From positions 186,001 to 250,000 of the forward strand of contig JANWUR010000002.1 of NCBI GenBank assembly GCA_024958655.1: 64,000 bases of DNA, written 5' to 3'. Source of the DNA: Cyanobium sp. FGCU6 (GTDB lineage: Bacteria; Cyanobacteriota; Cyanobacteriia; PCC-6307; Cyanobiaceae). This document shows, in pieces, positions 20,466 to 29,016 of the stretch (its first letter is position 1; every line of letters starts with the position of its first letter). The notes below the pieces were generated by a model, which worked only from the letters and a program-made list of their open reading frames with translations, was not told the origin of the DNA and did not search any database. Made by a program: the position numbers and the translations under genes.

Positions 20466-21740
20466 TCAGACCACCCGCACCTGCCAGTCCGAATCCGGGG
20501 GCAGGCCCTCCAGATCCACCACCTGATTGCGGCCCCGGTCCTTGGCCACGTACAGGGCTGCGTCGGCCGCCTCCAGCAGGGGCTGAAGCTCCCAGCTGCC
20601 GATCCCGCTGGCGGAAGCCAGCCCCACCGACAGGCGGATCACCACGCTGTGGTCATGCTCGATCACCAGCGGAGCAGCCTCAAGCGCCTGGCGGGCGCGC
20701 TCCAGCAGCGCATGGGCCCGGGAACGGTCGGTGACCAGCAGCAGGGCGAACTCATCGCCGCCGAGGCGGCCCACCAGATCGCTGCGGCGCAGGGCATTAG
20801 CCAGAAACGCCGACACGTAACGGATGACCTCGTCGCCGGCGGCGTGGCCATAGCCGTCGTTGATCGACTTGAAATGATCGATGTCGAGCAGGGCCAGCAC
20901 CATCTCCTGCCGCGTGGGGACTGCCCGATCCAGCAGCGCAGCGGCCTTCTCACGGAAGGCCCGGCGGTTGTAGACACCGGAGAGCTCATCGGTATGGGCC
21001 TCGGCGATCAGCTCGGGAAGCACCTGACGCCGCACCAGCCACAGCAGGGCACCACTGGAGAGCAGCAGGGGCAGCAGTCCCGCCAGGATGAAGGTGATGG
21101 TGAGCTGGATGGCCGCGTTGCGGTACTCCTCCAGATCCTTCACGGTGAGCAGGGTGGCCTTCGGACCGAAGCTGCGGGTGCTCTCCAGCGCCAGGGGAAA
21201 CGTCCGCATCGCCACCACCTGGGCGCCGCCCACCAGGGGGATCGGCCCGACGAACCGCAGCCGCGGCTGCTCCAGGCACTGGGCGGAGGCGCCTGGCCTC
21301 AGGCAGGGTTCCAGAAGCCGGCGCAGGGGCGTCGACTCCGGCCGGCGCAGCATCCCTGGGAGGCTTTCCCCCACCAGGGCGCTGTCGCTGGCCGCGAGCA
21401 CCAGACGTCTGGCGTCGAGCACCACGGCCAGATCCGCCTCACCGGCCGAAGTGGTGAGCTGGACCCGTCGGCGCAGCTCATACAGCGGCAGGTAGCTGGT
21501 GAGGGCCACACTCAGCTGGCGCTGCAGGGTGGTGGTGGCGCGCGCCGCATCCCGGCCACTGAGCCGCAGCACCAGCAGCACCGCCAGCAGGCTCATCAGC
21601 GTCGAGGCCAGCAGGGCCACCGCGAGCACGATCAGCACCAGGCGGCGATCAAGGCGGCGCTCGAGCGTCTGGCCGCCCTGACCGTTGCCGGGCCGATCGA
21701 CCAACCCCAGGGCGCCCCCAGGCTCCGTCACCTTACCCAT
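20466..21740 (-). CDS. Membrane-bound diguanylate cyclase (GGDEF)
   Basis: 424 residues: TM helix about residues 33-58, an extracytoplasmic sensor region, a second TM helix around 210-235, then a C-terminal GGDEF domain. The active site reads RLGGDEFALL, and RRSD sits five residues before it, so both catalysis and the product-inhibition I-site look intact; it should make c-di-GMP. The start ATG at 21740 overlaps the end of the upstream binding-protein gene by 8 bp, so the sensor may respond to that periplasmic protein. Confidence 0.92.
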   Translation of the reverse strand: MGKVTEPGGALGLVDRPGNGQGGQTLERRLDRRLVLIVLAVALLASTLMSLLAVLLVLRLSGRDAARATTTLQRQLSVALTSYLPLYELRRRVQLTTSAGEADLAVVLDARRLVLAASDSALVGESLPGMLRRPESTPLRRLLEPCLRPGASAQCLEQPRLRFVGPIPLVGGAQVVAMRTFPLALESTRSFGPKATLLTVKDLEEYRNAAIQLTITFILAGLLPLLLSSGALLWLVRRQVLPELIAEAHTDELSGVYNRRAFREKAAALLDRAVPTRQEMVLALLDIDHFKSINDGYGHAAGDEVIRYVSAFLANALRRSDLVGRLGGDEFALLLVTDRSRAHALLERARQALEAAPLVIEHDHSVVIRLSVGLASASGIGSWELQPLLEAADAALYVAKDRGRNQVVDLEGLPPDSDWQVRVV

Positions 21741-22710
21741 CCCCCTCCAGCGCCTCCGTGGATAGGCGGGGAAGAGGGGCCGTGGGGGTGATGCGGCCAG
21801 CCCGCAGCATCAGGCGCGCCATCTGATTCAGGCTGGCGGCGACCGGACCCCTCGGAGCCAGGAGTCGCCCCTGATCCGCCGGCCCGGGATAGACCAGGCC
21901 CGCCTCACTGGCCTTGAAGGCGGCGGCAGAGAGTCCCTCCCGCCCCGCCATCAGCGCTACGGCCCGGCCCGGGTGCTCCCGGGCCCAGCGCCGGGCCTCC
22001 CACCAGGTGGCCACAAGGGCGCGCACCCGCTCCGGGTGACGACGCAGCACGACCGGGTCCACCGCCAGCACATCCACCACTTCTCCAGGAAGGCGCTCGG
22101 AGCCGAACAGGCGGGGGTAGCGGCCCTCCACCAGGAGGGGGGTGGCGTAGGGCACATAGGTGACGATCGCCTCCAGCCGGCCGTCCCGCAGCCCCTCCAC
22201 CAGATCCGAAGGATCTCCGGGCACGAGCCTGAGGTCGTCGAGGCCGAGGCCATGGGGCTCGAGGCCGCGGAGCAGCAAAACCTGGGCGAGCACGGTCGTC
22301 TCCACGCCCACGGACCGCCCCGCCAGATCCGCCATCGACCGCAGGCCGGGCGCCCCCAGCACCATGTCGCCACCGCGGGACTCATCGAGCACGAGCACGA
22401 GCACAGGACAGCGTGTGGGTGCGTCCTGGCAGGTGGCGATCGTCTCCGGCAGGCTGGTGGCCAGCAGGTCGACATCTCCGCGCACGTAGGCCAGCCGCTG
22501 GTCCTGGAGCGAGCCGAACTGGCGCACCTTCAGTGCCAACCCGTGGCGATGCCCGAGCTGCCGTTGCTCCGCCAGATAGAGATACTCGTAGGCCGGCCAG
22601 TTGGTGATGGCCACCTCGAAGGCCGGGGTGGACCTCCAGCAGCCCGCCAATGCCAGCGCAGGGACGACCGGGGCCAGCATCAGGCCAAGCAGAGCAAGCG
22701 CCCCTCTCAT
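21733..22710 (-). CDS. ABC-type substrate-binding lipoprotein (NMT1/SsuA-like), copy 2
   Basis: 325 residues with a lipoprotein signal (cleavage at LAGC) and an NMT1/taurine-type periplasmic binding fold (FEVAITNWPAYEYLYLAE at the mature N-terminus, VPYATPLLVEG, DVLAVDP). No permease or ATPase gene is nearby, so it probably senses rather than imports. Paralogous to the next gene upstream (shared CPVLVLVLDES-like, SVADLRGR-like and EIFDVLAI-like stretches). 4-bp overlap upstream and 8-bp overlap with the GGDEF gene. The ligand is unknown. Confidence 0.85.
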   Translation of the reverse strand: MRGALALLGLMLAPVVPALALAGCWRSTPAFEVAITNWPAYEYLYLAEQRQLGHRHGLALKVRQFGSLQDQRLAYVRGDVDLLATSLPETIATCQDAPTRCPVLVLVLDESRGGDMVLGAPGLRSMADLAGRSVGVETTVLAQVLLLRGLEPHGLGLDDLRLVPGDPSDLVEGLRDGRLEAIVTYVPYATPLLVEGRYPRLFGSERLPGEVVDVLAVDPVVLRRHPERVRALVATWWEARRWAREHPGRAVALMAGREGLSAAAFKASEAGLVYPGPADQGRLLAPRGPVAASLNQMARLMLRAGRITPTAPLPRLSTEALEGDG

Positions 22711-23708
22711 CGCGCGAGCGCCTGACGCACCGGCCCGTCCGTCACCACCGGCAGGACACCTCCGGCGGGAAGCACCCCCAGCTGCCGCTGCACCCTCTGC
22801 ACCGCAACGAGATTACGCACGATCGGTCCGCCGGGGGCCAGCAGCGGCTTCTGCTGCTCGAGGGGGAAGAAGCGCAGTCCCGCCAGGGTGGTGCGGAACT
22901 CCGCCAGGGGCAGCTCCTCCCGTTTCGCCATCACAGCATGGGAGGCGTCCGGATGCGAGACGGCATGGGTGTGGGCCTGGGCCCAGGCCCGCACCAGGGC
23001 CTCGACCTCGGCGGGGTGCTCGCGCAGCCAGGCCGGCTCGATCGCCAGAACATCGAAGATCTCCCCGGGGATCTCCCGGCTGTCGAACAGCCGCCGCAGG
23101 TTCTGCTGCCGCTCAGCCTGCATGCTGAAGGGCGGGTACAAGACCGCTGCGTCCACATCCCCCCGGGCTAGCGCGACGCCCATGGCTCCCAGGGTCATGC
23201 CCCGCAACGTGACCGCAGCGAGGGGGACACCACTGCGCTCCAGCGCCCGGGCCAGCACGAAGGGCCCGAGGGTGGAGAAGGCCACGGCCACCCGACGACC
23301 CCGGAGGTCGGCGACAGAGCGGATGGTCGGGCGGGCCAGCACCACATCGGCGCCGGTGGATTCGTCGAGCACGAGGACCACCACCGGGCAGCGCTCCGAC
23401 GCCCTGGCACAGATGTCCACCACCTCCACGGTGGTGAGCGGCGCGATCCGCACATCGCCGCGCAGATAGGCATGCACGATGTCCTGGGGATCGGGATACT
23501 CCACCGGTCGGATCCGGATGCCGGCGGTCCGATCCAACCCCTCGTGATGGGCCAGCACGAAGAACTCATAGCCGGGCCACTTGGACACAGGCACCTCCAC
23601 CACAGGCCTCCGGGTGGCGCAGGCGGTGGCGAACAGGCCCAGAACCGTGCCGAGGGCGACCAGGGTCGCGATTGCCCGGGAGGAAGCCACGGAGCACGAT
23701 CGAAGCAT
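22707..23708 (-). CDS. ABC-type substrate-binding lipoprotein (NMT1/SsuA-like), copy 1
   Basis: 333 residues from the ATG at 23708, which has a GGAAGGGG stretch just upstream; the frame is open to 23759. N-terminal hydrophobic signal ending FATAC, a weak lipobox, then VVEVPVSKWPGYEFFVLAHHEGL. Same fold as its downstream paralogue. First gene of a three-gene unit (binding protein, binding protein, GGDEF) and divergent from an EAL gene with 109 bp between. Substrate not predictable; nitrate/sulfonate/pyrimidine-type ligands are typical of the family. Confidence 0.85.
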   Translation of the reverse strand: MLRSCSVASSRAIATLVALGTVLGLFATACATRRPVVEVPVSKWPGYEFFVLAHHEGLDRTAGIRIRPVEYPDPQDIVHAYLRGDVRIAPLTTVEVVDICARASERCPVVVLVLDESTGADVVLARPTIRSVADLRGRRVAVAFSTLGPFVLARALERSGVPLAAVTLRGMTLGAMGVALARGDVDAAVLYPPFSMQAERQQNLRRLFDSREIPGEIFDVLAIEPAWLREHPAEVEALVRAWAQAHTHAVSHPDASHAVMAKREELPLAEFRTTLAGLRFFPLEQQKPLLAPGGPIVRNLVAVQRVQRQLGVLPAGGVLPVVTDGPVRQALAR

Positions 23709-23817
23709 CCCCTTCCCTGGCGAAGGCCGCAACGTAGCCGTCGCCACCTTGGCTGACACCGGTGTCGGCGGGGAGAAACCTCCCTAACGTTGAAAACCGC
23801 AGCACTTTGCAGCCAGG

Positions 23818-26007
23818 TTGGAGAACCAGTGGTTCGAACCACCGGAGGGCGCCGCCCAAGCGTCAGCCACCGGTTCCGCGCCCTCCGAAGAGGCGCAGAG
23901 CGCCCCCCTGCGGCTGGCCTCCCTCGAGGAAGGGCTGCGCGTGGCTCTCGATCTCAGCGGCACCGACCTGGTGCTCTGCGATCCACAGAGCTGGCGGTTC
24001 CTCGACTGCAACCGCTCGGCGCACGAACGGCTGGGCTACAGCCGCGAGGAATTCCTGGCCCTCGATCCGGCCTCTCTGCAGGCCGACCCTCAGCACGACG
24101 AGCGATGGGTGCAGGAGCGGATGGAGCAGATGCGGCAGCAGCCGCGAGGGTCGTTTCCCACCCGCCATCGCGGCCGCGACGGCCGCCTGCGCGATGTGGA
24201 TCTTCACTACCAGATGGTGACGTTCCAGGGCCGCCCCCTGGTGGTGATCGCCCAACGGGACAGCACCGAAAAGGAGCGGGCCCGGCGGGAGTCGGAGCGG
24301 CTGGGCTTCATGCTCAACGAGGCCGAGCGCATCAGCCATCTGGGCAGCTGGGAGCTGATCCACGCCACCGGTGAGCTGCTCTGGTCGGAGGAGACCTACC
24401 GGATCTTCGGCACAACCCCTGAGGAGACGCGACCCAGCTACGAGAACTTCCTGGGCCTGGTCCACCCCGACGACCGGGATGCCCTGGAGGCCACTTTCCG
24501 CCAGAGCGTGCTCAACGGCAGTGCTTACCGGATGCGCCACCGGCTGCTGTTGCCGGACGGCCAGGAGAAGATCGTGCTGGAGCGGGGCGAAACCCGGTAC
24601 GACGAGAAGGGCCAACCGCTCACCACCATCGGCACGGTGCACGACATCACCCACCAGCACGTGATCGAACGCCAGCTGGAGGAGGCGGCCTACCTCGACC
24701 CCCTCACCGGCCTGCCGAACAAGGCCGCCACACTCCGCCGCCTGCATGGCCTGATGCAGACCGGCGCCTACAACTGCAGCATCGCGGTGATCGGCATCGA
24801 TCTCGACGATTTCCAGTCGATCAACGACAGCTTCGGACCCGAGGTGGGCAACCAGGTGCTCACCGCCGTCGGCCAACGTCTGCGCAACCATCTCCAGTCC
24901 AGCGACTGGGTGGCGCGGCTGGGGAGTGATGAATTCGTGGTGGTTCGGCACTGTCCCAGCGGCACGATCGGCGAAGCGATCGACCTGGCCCGCCAGGTGC
25001 ATGCGGCCCTGGACGATCTGCCCCTGATCGGCACCGGCGTGGCGATGCGGCCGACGAGCTGCGTGGGGGTGGCGACCTTCCCGGAACACGGCACGGATCC
25101 CGAAAGCCTGCTGCAATGCACAAACACGGCCCTGATGGAGGCCAAGCACAGCGGCAAGCATCAGCTGCGCGCGTACTCCACGGCGATGAGCACCCTGCTG
25201 CGCGAACGGCTGGAGCTGGAGGTGCAGCTGGCCCACGCGGTGGACCGGGAGCAATTGCGGCTGGTGTATCAGCCCCAGGTGGACCGCCAGGGTCGTCCGG
25301 TGGGGGCGGAGGCCCTCCTGCGCTGGCGGTCCCAGGGAGGGGGGGAAATCCCGCCGGATCGCTTCATCCCCCTGGCCGAGCAGACGGGCCTGATCCTGCC
25401 GATCGGCTCCTGGGTGCTGGAGGAGGCCCTGCAGCAGGTGCGGCTCTGGGAACTGCGCCGTATGGATCCCCCCAGGCTGGCGATCAACATCTCCGCCCTT
25501 CAGCTCGAGCAGGAGGAACCCTCACTGGGATCCCAGCTCGCGGCGGCTCTGAGCCGGCATCATGTGAGCGCCGGGGCGTTCGAACTGGAGATCACCGAAA
25601 CGGCCCTGCTTCGCAACCCCAAACTGGCCATCGAGCAGCTTGAGAAACTGGCCGGGCTTGGCTTCAGCCTGGCGATCGACGACTTCGGCACCGGCTATTC
25701 CTCCCTCTCGATGCTGCATGCGCTGCCGATCAACAAGCTCAAGATCGACCGCTGCTTCCTCCAGAACATCGACCGCGACAACGCCAACCGCGCGATTGTG
25801 CGCGCCACTGTTTCCATGGCCCAGTCCCTCGGACTGCTCACCCTCGCCGAGGGCGTGGAAACCGAAGGCCAGTTCCAGAGTCTGCTGGAGCTCGGCTGTG
25901 ACCAGTTCCAGGGTTATCTGTTCGGCCGTCCCCAGCCCACCGACTCCTTTGAGCAGGCTCTGGCCGCTCTCGCCGGGGGCCAGGAGGCCCGTCTGCTCAC
26001 CAGCTGA
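23818..26007 (+). CDS. PAS-PAS-GGDEF-EAL c-di-GMP phosphodiesterase
   Basis: 729 residues from a TTG at 23818; no better start is in frame nearby. Two PAS modules (about 40-160 and 165-285; the second has WSEETYRIFG and GTVHDITHQ), a GGDEF-like domain whose motif is GSDEF, then an EAL domain. The EAL part retains EALLRW, the INIS asparagine, ELEITETAL, DDFGTGYSS, KIDRCF, EGVETEGQ and QGYLFG, so hydrolysis of c-di-GMP should be intact; the degenerate GSDEF probably binds GTP or is inactive. Divergent from the binding-protein/cyclase unit, hence likely its counterpart. No TM segment, so cytosolic. Confidence 0.92.
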   Translation: MENQWFEPPEGAAQASATGSAPSEEAQSAPLRLASLEEGLRVALDLSGTDLVLCDPQSWRFLDCNRSAHERLGYSREEFLALDPASLQADPQHDERWVQERMEQMRQQPRGSFPTRHRGRDGRLRDVDLHYQMVTFQGRPLVVIAQRDSTEKERARRESERLGFMLNEAERISHLGSWELIHATGELLWSEETYRIFGTTPEETRPSYENFLGLVHPDDRDALEATFRQSVLNGSAYRMRHRLLLPDGQEKIVLERGETRYDEKGQPLTTIGTVHDITHQHVIERQLEEAAYLDPLTGLPNKAATLRRLHGLMQTGAYNCSIAVIGIDLDDFQSINDSFGPEVGNQVLTAVGQRLRNHLQSSDWVARLGSDEFVVVRHCPSGTIGEAIDLARQVHAALDDLPLIGTGVAMRPTSCVGVATFPEHGTDPESLLQCTNTALMEAKHSGKHQLRAYSTAMSTLLRERLELEVQLAHAVDREQLRLVYQPQVDRQGRPVGAEALLRWRSQGGGEIPPDRFIPLAEQTGLILPIGSWVLEEALQQVRLWELRRMDPPRLAINISALQLEQEEPSLGSQLAAALSRHHVSAGAFELEITETALLRNPKLAIEQLEKLAGLGFSLAIDDFGTGYSSLSMLHALPINKLKIDRCFLQNIDRDNANRAIVRATVSMAQSLGLLTLAEGVETEGQFQSLLELGCDQFQGYLFGRPQPTDSFEQALAALAGGQEARLLTS

Positions 26008-26554
26008 CGCCGTGAAGCTTGGGCAGGGGTGCCGTGCGGGAGGTGACGGCGTAGAGGCGGGGGATCCGGTTGCTGTTGTAGACCCTGAACTCCCGCACCA
26101 CGCTGGCGCCCTCGTCGCGTACGGCCTGGTTCAACACCAGCGAGCCATCAGGATCGGAGACAGAGCGGTGGAAAGTGCCCGGGGGGATGCGCAGGATGTC
26201 ACCGCCACAATCGAGGCGGACGATGTGAAAGGGATAGTTCCAGCCCAGGTTCACCAGGTAGAAGGTGCGGCCGCCGTGCAGGGCGAGCAGATTGTCCTCC
26301 TGATGGGGGTGGAGATAGAACTGCCACGCTCCCGACTCCGGATCGTCCGGTGGACTCACCGCAGGGCCGGTGTGCACCACCAGATCGCGGGCATTGGAGC
26401 TGGGAACCGTGATGTCGAAGAAGCGGACCGCCGGGGTATCGCGGAACTTCTCGTAGGGGATCAGCTCGAACATCGGCGCCGGTCTGGGCGGGCGTTGGTG
26501 AGGCTCCTGCTGAGCCTGGACCTGGGGGTCGCGGGGGGCGGTGCGGGCGTTCAT
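25997..26554 (-). CDS. Cupin-like conserved hypothetical protein
   Basis: 185 residues with beta-rich, histidine-containing stretches (FYLHPHQEDNLLALHGG and RIPPGTFHRSVS) that resemble a cupin barrel with metal-binding histidines. The first 27 residues are low complexity; the Met at 26473 (MFELIPYEKF) could be the true start. An 11-base G/C homopolymer lies directly before the ATG at 26554. Its end overlaps the end of the convergent EAL gene by 11 bp. Possibly a sugar isomerase/dTDP-sugar epimerase-like fold, but I do not recognise the enzyme. Confidence 0.7.
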   Translation of the reverse strand: MNARTAPRDPQVQAQQEPHQRPPRPAPMFELIPYEKFRDTPAVRFFDITVPSSNARDLVVHTGPAVSPPDDPESGAWQFYLHPHQEDNLLALHGGRTFYLVNLGWNYPFHIVRLDCGGDILRIPPGTFHRSVSDPDGSLVLNQAVRDEGASVVREFRVYNSNRIPRLYAVTSRTAPLPKLHGVSW

Positions 26555-27594: not shown

Positions 27595-29016
27595 TCAGGG
27601 GCCGCAGGCGCTGAAGGGTTCGCGCACGAAGAACAGGGCATCGCGGGGCTCCACCGCCAGCCCACCGCGGCTCCAGCTCCCCCAGCGGGTCACGAACTTC
27701 TTCGGACCCCGGCGCTCGATCGCCACGGTGCTGCCGCTGCGCAGTTCCCGGTAGCAGCCCTCCAGATCGCTCAGGGTGAGATCGAGCACCGGCTGATCGA
27801 AGCGCTCGGCGCCCTTGTTGATCACGGCGAATCCCTCGGCTCCCCGCTGCAGCAGCAGCACGGTGCTCCTGTTGATCGGCCGCAGGATCGTTTCGTTCCC
27901 ATGGCGCCCTTCCCGGGCCCGGCCCGCAAGGATGCGGCGGAACAGGGCGCCGGCGCTCAGGTAGGGCGCCGCGGCGGCATCGCCGGCGAGCACCAGCGGG
28001 GTTCCGTGCTGCCGGGCCAGCACATAGGCGCTCGCCAGCCAGGCATCGGCGGGATCGCTCCAGGGGTTGAGGGCGTCTTCGCGTCGAACGCGGATCTCCG
28101 CCAGGTTGTCGTGGCTGCGGCCGAAGCTCACGCTGCGGGGATCCGCAAGGACCGCCGCCGGCAGGGAACGCAGATCGCCACCCCAGGAGAAGGCCCGTCG
28201 CAGCGATCCGTACAGCACGAAGTCGGTGACGGCGGCGATCCACGCGTAGTCCTGGGCCCCGGTGTCGCCGTCCTGGATCACCTCCAGGTAGTTCCAGATG
28301 CGACGTTGGCTGCGGGCATCGACGTGATCGATGTACTCCTTCAACACCTGCGGCGGCATGTGCTTGGCGGCATCGAAGCGGAAGCCGTCGATCCCCAGGC
28401 CGAGCAGCCGCTCGAGATGGGCCTTCTGAATCCGCTTCACGTTGGCCGTGAACACCAGATCCGGCAGGCTGCCGAGCCAGCAGCCGAGTTCGGAATCGCG
28501 GTTGCCGTCGTCGTAACCGCTGCGGCCTGGCACCCGGCTGTCCGTGTCCCGGCAGGGGCGGCGCAGGGTGGCCCCGGGAAGGCCGTGGAAATCGGCCCGC
28601 CCCAGGCCCGGGTAGCAGAGTGGGTTCTCCTGCTCCGGCCGGCCATCGAGATCGGCCATGTGGTTGAAGACCACATCGGCGATCACCCGCACCCCGCAGC
28701 CATGGGCCCGGCGGATCAGCCGGCGCAGATCCTGCTCCGTGCCCAGCCCGGCGATCACACCGTGATCCACGGGCTGGTAGCGCCGGGCCCAGCCCATCGG
28801 GGCCGCGAAGGGTCCGGGGTGCGACTGCTGGGCCGGCGAGATCTGCACGTGCGACCAGCCCTGCTTCCCCCAGCGGCACACCTGCTCTTCCACCTGCCGA
28901 AACGGCAGATCGAAGGCGTGCAGAATCGCGGTGGGCTGCTCGCCCGCCGAGGCTCCGGCCGGCAGGGCCAGGGCCAGAAGCAGGGCCAGCCGGCTCAGAA
29001 GGGAGCGGCAGCGCAC
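27595..29016 (-). CDS. Secreted GH13 alpha-amylase
   Basis: 473 residues with an N-terminal signal peptide (hydrophobic core LLALALPAGASA), so exported. GH13 conserved regions are in order: DVVFNH; GFRFDAAKH with the nucleophile Asp; LEVIQDG with the acid/base Glu; and the third-acid region FGRSHDN. Hydrolyses internal alpha-1,4-glucosidic bonds, presumably of external or periplasmic starch-like glucan. The gene ahead of it on the same strand is a TPR protein (gap 17 bp), which may be co-transcribed. Full-length and apparently active. Confidence 0.92.
   Translation of the reverse strand: MRCRSLLSRLALLLALALPAGASAGEQPTAILHAFDLPFRQVEEQVCRWGKQGWSHVQISPAQQSHPGPFAAPMGWARRYQPVDHGVIAGLGTEQDLRRLIRRAHGCGVRVIADVVFNHMADLDGRPEQENPLCYPGLGRADFHGLPGATLRRPCRDTDSRVPGRSGYDDGNRDSELGCWLGSLPDLVFTANVKRIQKAHLERLLGLGIDGFRFDAAKHMPPQVLKEYIDHVDARSQRRIWNYLEVIQDGDTGAQDYAWIAAVTDFVLYGSLRRAFSWGGDLRSLPAAVLADPRSVSFGRSHDNLAEIRVRREDALNPWSDPADAWLASAYVLARQHGTPLVLAGDAAAAPYLSAGALFRRILAGRAREGRHGNETILRPINRSTVLLLQRGAEGFAVINKGAERFDQPVLDLTLSDLEGCYRELRSGSTVAIERRGPKKFVTRWGSWSRGGLAVEPRDALFFVREPFSACGP

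Follow-up and report, generated by a model that had tools for sequence, protein, structure and literature searches.

Two NMT1-type binding lipoproteins that probably gate a membrane diguanylate cyclase in a conserved gene unit of Cyanobium sp. FGCU6

The window analysed here is a 64,000-nucleotide stretch of Cyanobium sp. FGCU6 (assembly GCA_024958655.1, contig JANWUR010000002.1, positions 186,001 to 250,000 of the forward strand), and its subject is a run of three overlapping genes for two solute-binding proteins (SBPs) of the NMT1/SsuA type and a membrane-bound diguanylate cyclase, with a divergent gene for a PAS-PAS-GGDEF-EAL protein beside it. With a probability of roughly 0.7, the three genes form one two-input receptor, in which SBPs independent of an importer would dock with the cyclase at its Cache domain while the divergent EAL protein would oppose it. 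Most likely the SBPs act as ligand-sensing co-receptors of the cyclase; the unit is real and conserved, and is probably an importer-independent SBP-gated cyclase. Genomes, loci and contigs of the window genome are labelled G, L and C, respectively, plus a number; the window genome (G000) comprises 4.07 Mb in 69 contigs, and, among named genomes, the records closest to it belong to Cyanobium, Vulcanococcus and Synechococcus. SBP1, SBP2 and SBP3 are paralogues in G000. The features of the unit, in window coordinates, are as follows.

22707..23759, minus strand: SBP1, NMT1/SsuA-type binding lipoprotein (open reading frame, Pfam and AlphaFold 2 model)
21733..22710, minus strand: SBP2, NMT1-type lipoprotein and SBP1 paralogue (open reading frame and Pfam)
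20466..21740, minus strand: diguanylate cyclase, with transmembrane (TM) segment, periplasmic domain, TM segment and GGDEF domain
21105..21563, minus strand: periplasmic sensor region of the cyclase, residues 60-212, predicted single Cache fold
20523..20999, minus strand: GGDEF domain of the cyclase, residues 248-406 (Pfam)
23760..23817, strand not applicable: 58-bp stretch separating the two divergent units, putative shared regulatory region
23818..26007, plus strand: divergent PAS-PAS-GGDEF(GSDEF)-EAL protein (open reading frame and Pfam)
25225..25932, plus strand: EAL domain of the divergent protein, residues 470-705 (Pfam)

Direct reading of the window gave an overlap of 4 bp between SBP1 and SBP2 (22707-22710, letters ATGA) and of 8 bp between SBP2 and the cyclase (21733-21740), as an earlier sequence-only reading of this DNA had reported. 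The sensor of the cyclase was found in 7 of 388 genomes of the class, all from the family of the window genome, and in 26 of 400 genomes of that family, where 29 rows represent 27 genes (two genes were split into two rows each and counted once apiece). An SBP of this family lies directly upstream on the same strand of 23 of the 27 sensor cyclases; these 23 loci are made up of 21 of the 25 loci of a neighbourhood survey, the window and G020 (L053). A tandem SBP pair is present at 18 of them, with SBP1 partial or broken at some, and a single SBP1-type protein at four (L178, L192, L194 and L195); in G020, SBP2 is upstream of the cyclase and SBP1 downstream. When the nearest start codon is taken, the SBP and cyclase genes overlap at 16 of the 23 loci, by 8 bp in the window and by 4 bp at the other 15 (an alternative start at L180 and L184 would make the overlap 1 bp), and are separated by 7-219 bp at seven. 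Because the order recurs at 23 of 27 cyclase genes, 16 of 23 with overlap, the arrangement in the window is not due to chance.

SBP1 and SBP2 both match Pfam NMT1 and NMT1_2 above the curated cut-off and are 38% identical over 283 residues, which bears out the sequence-only description of two paralogous lipoproteins. SBP1 has 350 residues counted from a GTG codon and carries its lipobox cysteine at C47; its true start may be the in-frame ATG at residue 18. SBP2 has 325 residues and a LAGC lipobox (C24). The AlphaFold 2 model of SBP1 (mean predicted local distance difference test score, pLDDT, 88) has two lobes and is closest in fold to TauA and SsuA (TauA 6ssy_A, E 8.5e-21), and no polyamine-SBP family appeared among the Pfam matches of either window SBP up to E 1. 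Two cysteines, C117 and C124, are conserved in SBP1; in the alignment, the C-x6-C pattern is present in 51 of 51 SBP1, SBP2 and SBP3 rows versus 0 of 10 other SBPs. The lipobox cysteine is kept by SBP1 and the single SBPs (20/20). In SBP2 it occurs at 7 of 19 loci, and the other 12 have an N-terminal hydrophobic stretch without it; as one or the other is present at all 19, the tether has been kept while its chemistry changes.

In a tree of 88 SBP sequences, SBP2 forms one clade of 18 rows (support 100/99), and the SBP1 clade of 26 rows (100/100) also takes in four single-SBP systems, four orphans and two genes followed by a convergent GGDEF gene. SBP3 and one orphan make up a third clade of 14 rows (100/99). 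As SBP1 and SBP2 fall in separate clades, the pair represents an old duplication whose copies have stayed adjacent. Four verified permease-linked SBPs group in a separate clade (100/100) on a long branch; for L172, a fifth row labelled as permease-linked, no permease was found in the fetched stretch. L172 (contig C69) and L173 (contig C48) are distant NMT1-like matches of G000, and their fetched stretches contain neither a permease match nor a signalling match. Assignment of an SBP1 ligand by alignment with TauA, using the contacts given in the available portion of PMC6906117, proved too weak for a claim: conserved acidic residues of SBP1 (D138 and D236) align where TauA holds the amine, and the residues are changed where TauA holds the sulfonate, but these positions were counted by hand and are partly common to other SBPs.

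Hydrophobic segments begin at residues 30 and 208 of the cyclase, which also has a GGDEF domain (Pfam E 2.8e-40) and no EAL match, in line with the two-TM GGDEF protein read from the sequence. Its GGDEF motif is intact and is preceded by an RxxD site (RRSD), which we take to be an I-site. Intact GGDEF motifs were found in the window cyclase and in 10 of 11 others of the first list, the motif being degenerate in L081. C146 and C155 are invariant in the alignment of 12 sensors. The region between TM1 and TM2 was modelled from this 12-sequence alignment (mean pLDDT 82), and searches with Foldseek and VIA-align matched the model to Cache sensors, including an integrative WalK model (Z 14.2), TlpQ, CitA and others; against the WalK crystal structure 4ywz_A, VIA-align gave Z 10.9 with a root-mean-square deviation of 3.3 over 130 residues. 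The periplasmic domain is thus predicted from the model to be a single Cache fold. Pfam sCache_3_2 was matched only below its curated cut-off, by 4 of the 12 sensor members (best E 0.003), and the window match likewise lies below it. A two-cysteine motif resembling that of the window sensor is also seen in another TM-sensor-GGDEF protein of G000 (L013, contig C21, ~34335), whose closest SBP match on that contig is ~28 kb off. A search of viral contigs with the cyclase sensor found no relative.

Beyond the family, one scan of named genomes yielded 54 SBP loci, some of them near-redundant or from the same genome. No SsuC-like permease was found within 4 kb at any of the 54 (tblastn, two queries, E 1e-4; contig ends shorten some flanks) or at the 25 loci of the neighbourhood survey; ATPases were not searched for around the SBP loci. 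A GGDEF, EAL or kinase domain lies within 4 kb at 45 of the 54. The remaining nine comprise L077, where the cyclase sensor is found at the end of a contig; L106, which stops 8 bases past the match; L088 and L119, both edge or partial cases; and L079, L084, L085, L086 and L107, which lack a neighbour of this kind. A large receptor is encoded by the gene after the SBP in Verrucomicrobiota, Planctomycetota, Pseudomonadota and other Cyanobacteriota. Pfam scans of 15 such receptors identified ten with a kinase domain and five with an EAL domain, three of these five also with GGDEF above the cut-off. Each of the 15 carries a pair of N-terminal hydrophobic segments spaced ~150-190 residues apart, as the window cyclase does, and seven overlap the SBP gene, six by 4 bp and one by 8 bp.

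A parallel system is present in G000 itself. At L010 6594-10457 (contig C4), beside clpC, SBP3 is divergent from the gene for a 912-residue PAS-GGDEF-EAL protein (PDE3). The divergent pair recurs at 12 genus-set loci (L056-L066 and L072) and on 12 of the 54 named contigs, two counts that overlap; at L072 both genes are interrupted. A membrane location of PDE3 is doubtful: none of its segments reaches the hydrophobicity cut-off, and it matches CHASE only weakly (E 0.029). The proposal of the sequence-only reading that the SBPs feed the cyclase apart from uptake gains comparative support from the recurrent gene order, the overlaps, the lack of a permease nearby, the SBP3 pair and the pairs in other phyla.

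The divergent protein of the window (729 residues, TTG start) has no hydrophobic segment, which agrees with the cytosolic location stated earlier; the domain order PAS-PAS-EAL given for it overlooked a GGDEF domain, Pfam assigning two PAS domains, GGDEF (E 1.9e-32) and EAL (E 9.4e-73). In the translation its GGDEF motif reads GSDEF, and its EAL domain contains EALLRW and DDFGTG, which we take to be EAL-domain motifs in intact form. Besides the window, 8 of 22 other SBP-cyclase loci carry a divergent PAS-GGDEF-EAL gene, and several other loci have a different GGDEF gene in the divergent position. This recurrence and the intact EAL motifs agree with the suggested resetting of the signal by the EAL protein, but with cytosolic PAS domains as its inputs the protein probably responds to a different cue.

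By the proposed mechanism, SBP1 and SBP2, tethered to the membrane, would close on small periplasmic ligands and, once loaded, dock with the dimeric cyclase at its single Cache domain. Docking would change GGDEF activity inside the cell, upwards or downwards, and two SBPs would provide two inputs. The PAS-PAS-GGDEF-EAL protein would lower cyclic di-GMP (c-di-GMP) on a separate cytosolic cue, in a putatively opposing role.

Several observations weigh against this account. Four of the 27 sensor cyclases have no adjoining SBP (G584, G418, G529 and G479, the last three being distant relatives), and in G584, which is 78% complete, no SBP of the family was found anywhere at E <= 1e-5. In G529 an SBP1-type gene lies elsewhere in the genome and is followed by a convergent GGDEF gene. 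SBP1-type orphans without a signalling neighbour occur (L054/L085, L055/L086, L079 and L084), no sensor was found in G031, G033 or G724 at E <= 1e-5, and SBP1 is broken or cut in some genomes (L180, L184 and L186). At two sister loci, L194 and L192, the latter sharing its contig with L081, the SBP is paired with a degenerate cyclase reading AGDQF or SGDQF. The importer-SBP clade branches among kinase- and EAL-linked SBPs, so that the signalling SBPs are not one separate clade. In a distance control (30 loci, 10 kb on each side), GGDEF, EAL or histidine kinase domains were found in the near 7 kb at 28 loci and in the far 7 kb at 11; the far-flank matches at 11 of 30 loci mean that c-di-GMP genes cluster around these loci generally. 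Profile-versus-profile comparison of the cyclase sensor with kinase sensors of other phyla gave 90.3% (A8/A9) and 87.7% (A8/A7), or 96.5 and 95.4% with the TM parts, versus 0.3% for the PDE3 sensor control and 14.5% for the control of A9 against the PDE3 sensor. Single members of the sensor sets gave 15.6, 16.9, 1.0 and 3.2% versus 1.4 and 3.2% for two other G000 cyclase sensors, and because of these low single-member scores a specific kinship of the sensors across phyla is only suggestive.

An SBP1-type gene followed by a convergent GGDEF gene was also seen at L078, L080 and L200. The orphan at L084 is accompanied by genes for a malate:quinone oxidoreductase, an M50 peptidase and a seryl-tRNA synthetase. 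Long open frames around the SBPs of G033 and G014 resembled SBP-receptor fusion genes but were discarded as such, since the extra stretch held no recognisable protein; the fusion reading covered these two genomes, G031 being nearly a copy of G033.

As a rule, NMT1 proteins are subunits of importers; for the window SBPs it is improbable that they serve an ABC permease encoded elsewhere and that the cyclase is merely co-transcribed with them. Their fold is closest to TauA and SsuA, importer SBPs branch inside the wider signalling group in the tree, and G000 contains seven permease matches of this class. Six of these were looked at, however, and each lies beside an SBP-like gene of its own: the C21 permease adjoins its SBP; two C41 permeases stand on either side of a single NMT1 gene, accompanied by ATPases and a luciferase-like monooxygenase; the C33 permease is next to an SBP match (E 4e-6); and the C3 and C56 permeases adjoin long SBP-like genes, as judged by eye. 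The seventh match is weak (C61, E 3.7e-4). Apart from SBP1, SBP2 and SBP3, an SBP of G000 that is 29% identical to SBP1 adjoins its own permease. No unpaired permease for the window SBPs was therefore seen among the six of seven matches, and the pairing with a permease encoded elsewhere, which the sequence-only reading had named as refuting its proposal, did not emerge. The permease-free flanks of the 54 scanned loci (some of them short) and the 25 survey loci, and the separate clade of the four verified permease-linked SBPs, also speak against an importer role.

Somewhat less improbable, but still unlikely, is a single co-expressed response operon in which SBPs and cyclase make no contact and the cyclase detects a ligand of its own through its Cache domain. 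Direct ligand binding is common among Cache domains, distant relatives of the sensor occur without SBPs (L179, L198 and L199), and the similar two-cysteine motif of L013 belongs to another G000 cyclase; set against this, the SBP and cyclase genes still overlap at 16 of 23 loci, and in other phyla SBPs are paired in the same way with kinases and EAL receptors. Slightly more room, though the odds remain low, is left for SBP1 being the working co-receptor by itself and SBP2 a redundant or decaying duplicate, as the four systems in which one SBP1-type protein accompanies the cyclase would suggest; at two of these, L192 and L194, the partner is the degenerate cyclase. SBP2 is nevertheless an old clade present at 19 of 23 loci, it adjoins the cyclase wherever both SBPs are present, and SBP1 is the one that is broken, cut or displaced in several genomes (L053, L180, L184 and L186). 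The two-input receptor is accordingly preferred. A broader proposal, which we hold only tentatively and at a little under even odds, is that a module spread over at least four phyla joins a tethered NMT1 SBP to a two-TM receptor with interchangeable output (histidine kinase, hybrid kinase, GGDEF-EAL or GGDEF); in one cyanobacterial family, two ancient paralogues before one cyclase would make a two-ligand sensor and a third paralogue would govern an opposing phosphodiesterase-type receptor.

Next to the divergent gene, a 185-residue protein (25997-26554, minus strand) has no Pfam or NCBIfam match, and copies 82-88% identical to it lie near the SBP-cyclase unit at several loci of the family. An alpha-amylase-like protein follows (27595-29016, minus strand), its Pfam match being partial (residues 89-220, E 9.4e-10).

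Few examples of c-di-GMP control by SBPs have been elucidated, and a compact unit of three overlapping genes in a small cyanobacterium would make ligand, docking and output directly testable. If correct, the proposal would show cyanobacteria tying outside solutes to a c-di-GMP decision without import, and would offer a function for many NMT1 proteins that resemble importer subunits by sequence. A literature search of limited coverage turned up no NMT1 protein controlling a diguanylate cyclase. The portion of PMC8846402 at hand states that, of 27 PBP-clan families, only SBP_bac_3 has been studied in c-di-GMP networks. That ligand-loaded SBPs dock on sensor domains, whether of chemoreceptors, kinases or c-di-GMP enzymes, is described as an accepted mechanism in the available part of PMC9602780, which names no NMT1 protein with a diguanylate cyclase among the SBP-stimulated receptors.

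The window SBPs share Pfam NMT1 and their fold with SsuA and TauA and differ from them in having no permease nearby and in carrying C-x6-C. The predicted fold of the cyclase sensor is like that of the single Cache sensors WalK and CitA, from which it differs by its sub-threshold sCache_3_2 match and two conserved cysteines. With STM1987 and ArtI, the arginine response depends both on the Cache-type domain that a c-di-GMP enzyme exposes in the periplasm and on a putative periplasmic binding protein (PMC8846402, as far as available); that pair joins dCACHE_1 to an arginine-binding protein, whereas the window would join a single Cache domain to NMT1 proteins. In NspS-MbaA of Vibrio cholerae, according to the part of PMC8967002 available, a c-di-GMP enzyme of the inner membrane is under the control of a periplasmic binding protein, NspS promotes cyclase activity when it carries its ligand, the two genes overlap, and import is handled by a separate system, PotABCD1. 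On that partial account the window is similar, its SBP genes overlapping or adjoining a membrane c-di-GMP enzyme gene without transporter genes. MbaA is a bifunctional GGDEF-EAL enzyme, whereas the window cyclase has GGDEF only and the EAL domain is on a separate protein, and one SBP in NspS-MbaA stands against two in the window. NspS is presumably a PotD-type, polyamine-binding protein, unlike the NMT1-type SBPs of the window. Because SBP family and receptor domain set both differ, the window unit lies outside the NspS-MbaA family; by analogy it would work like NspS-MbaA but is not a member of it.

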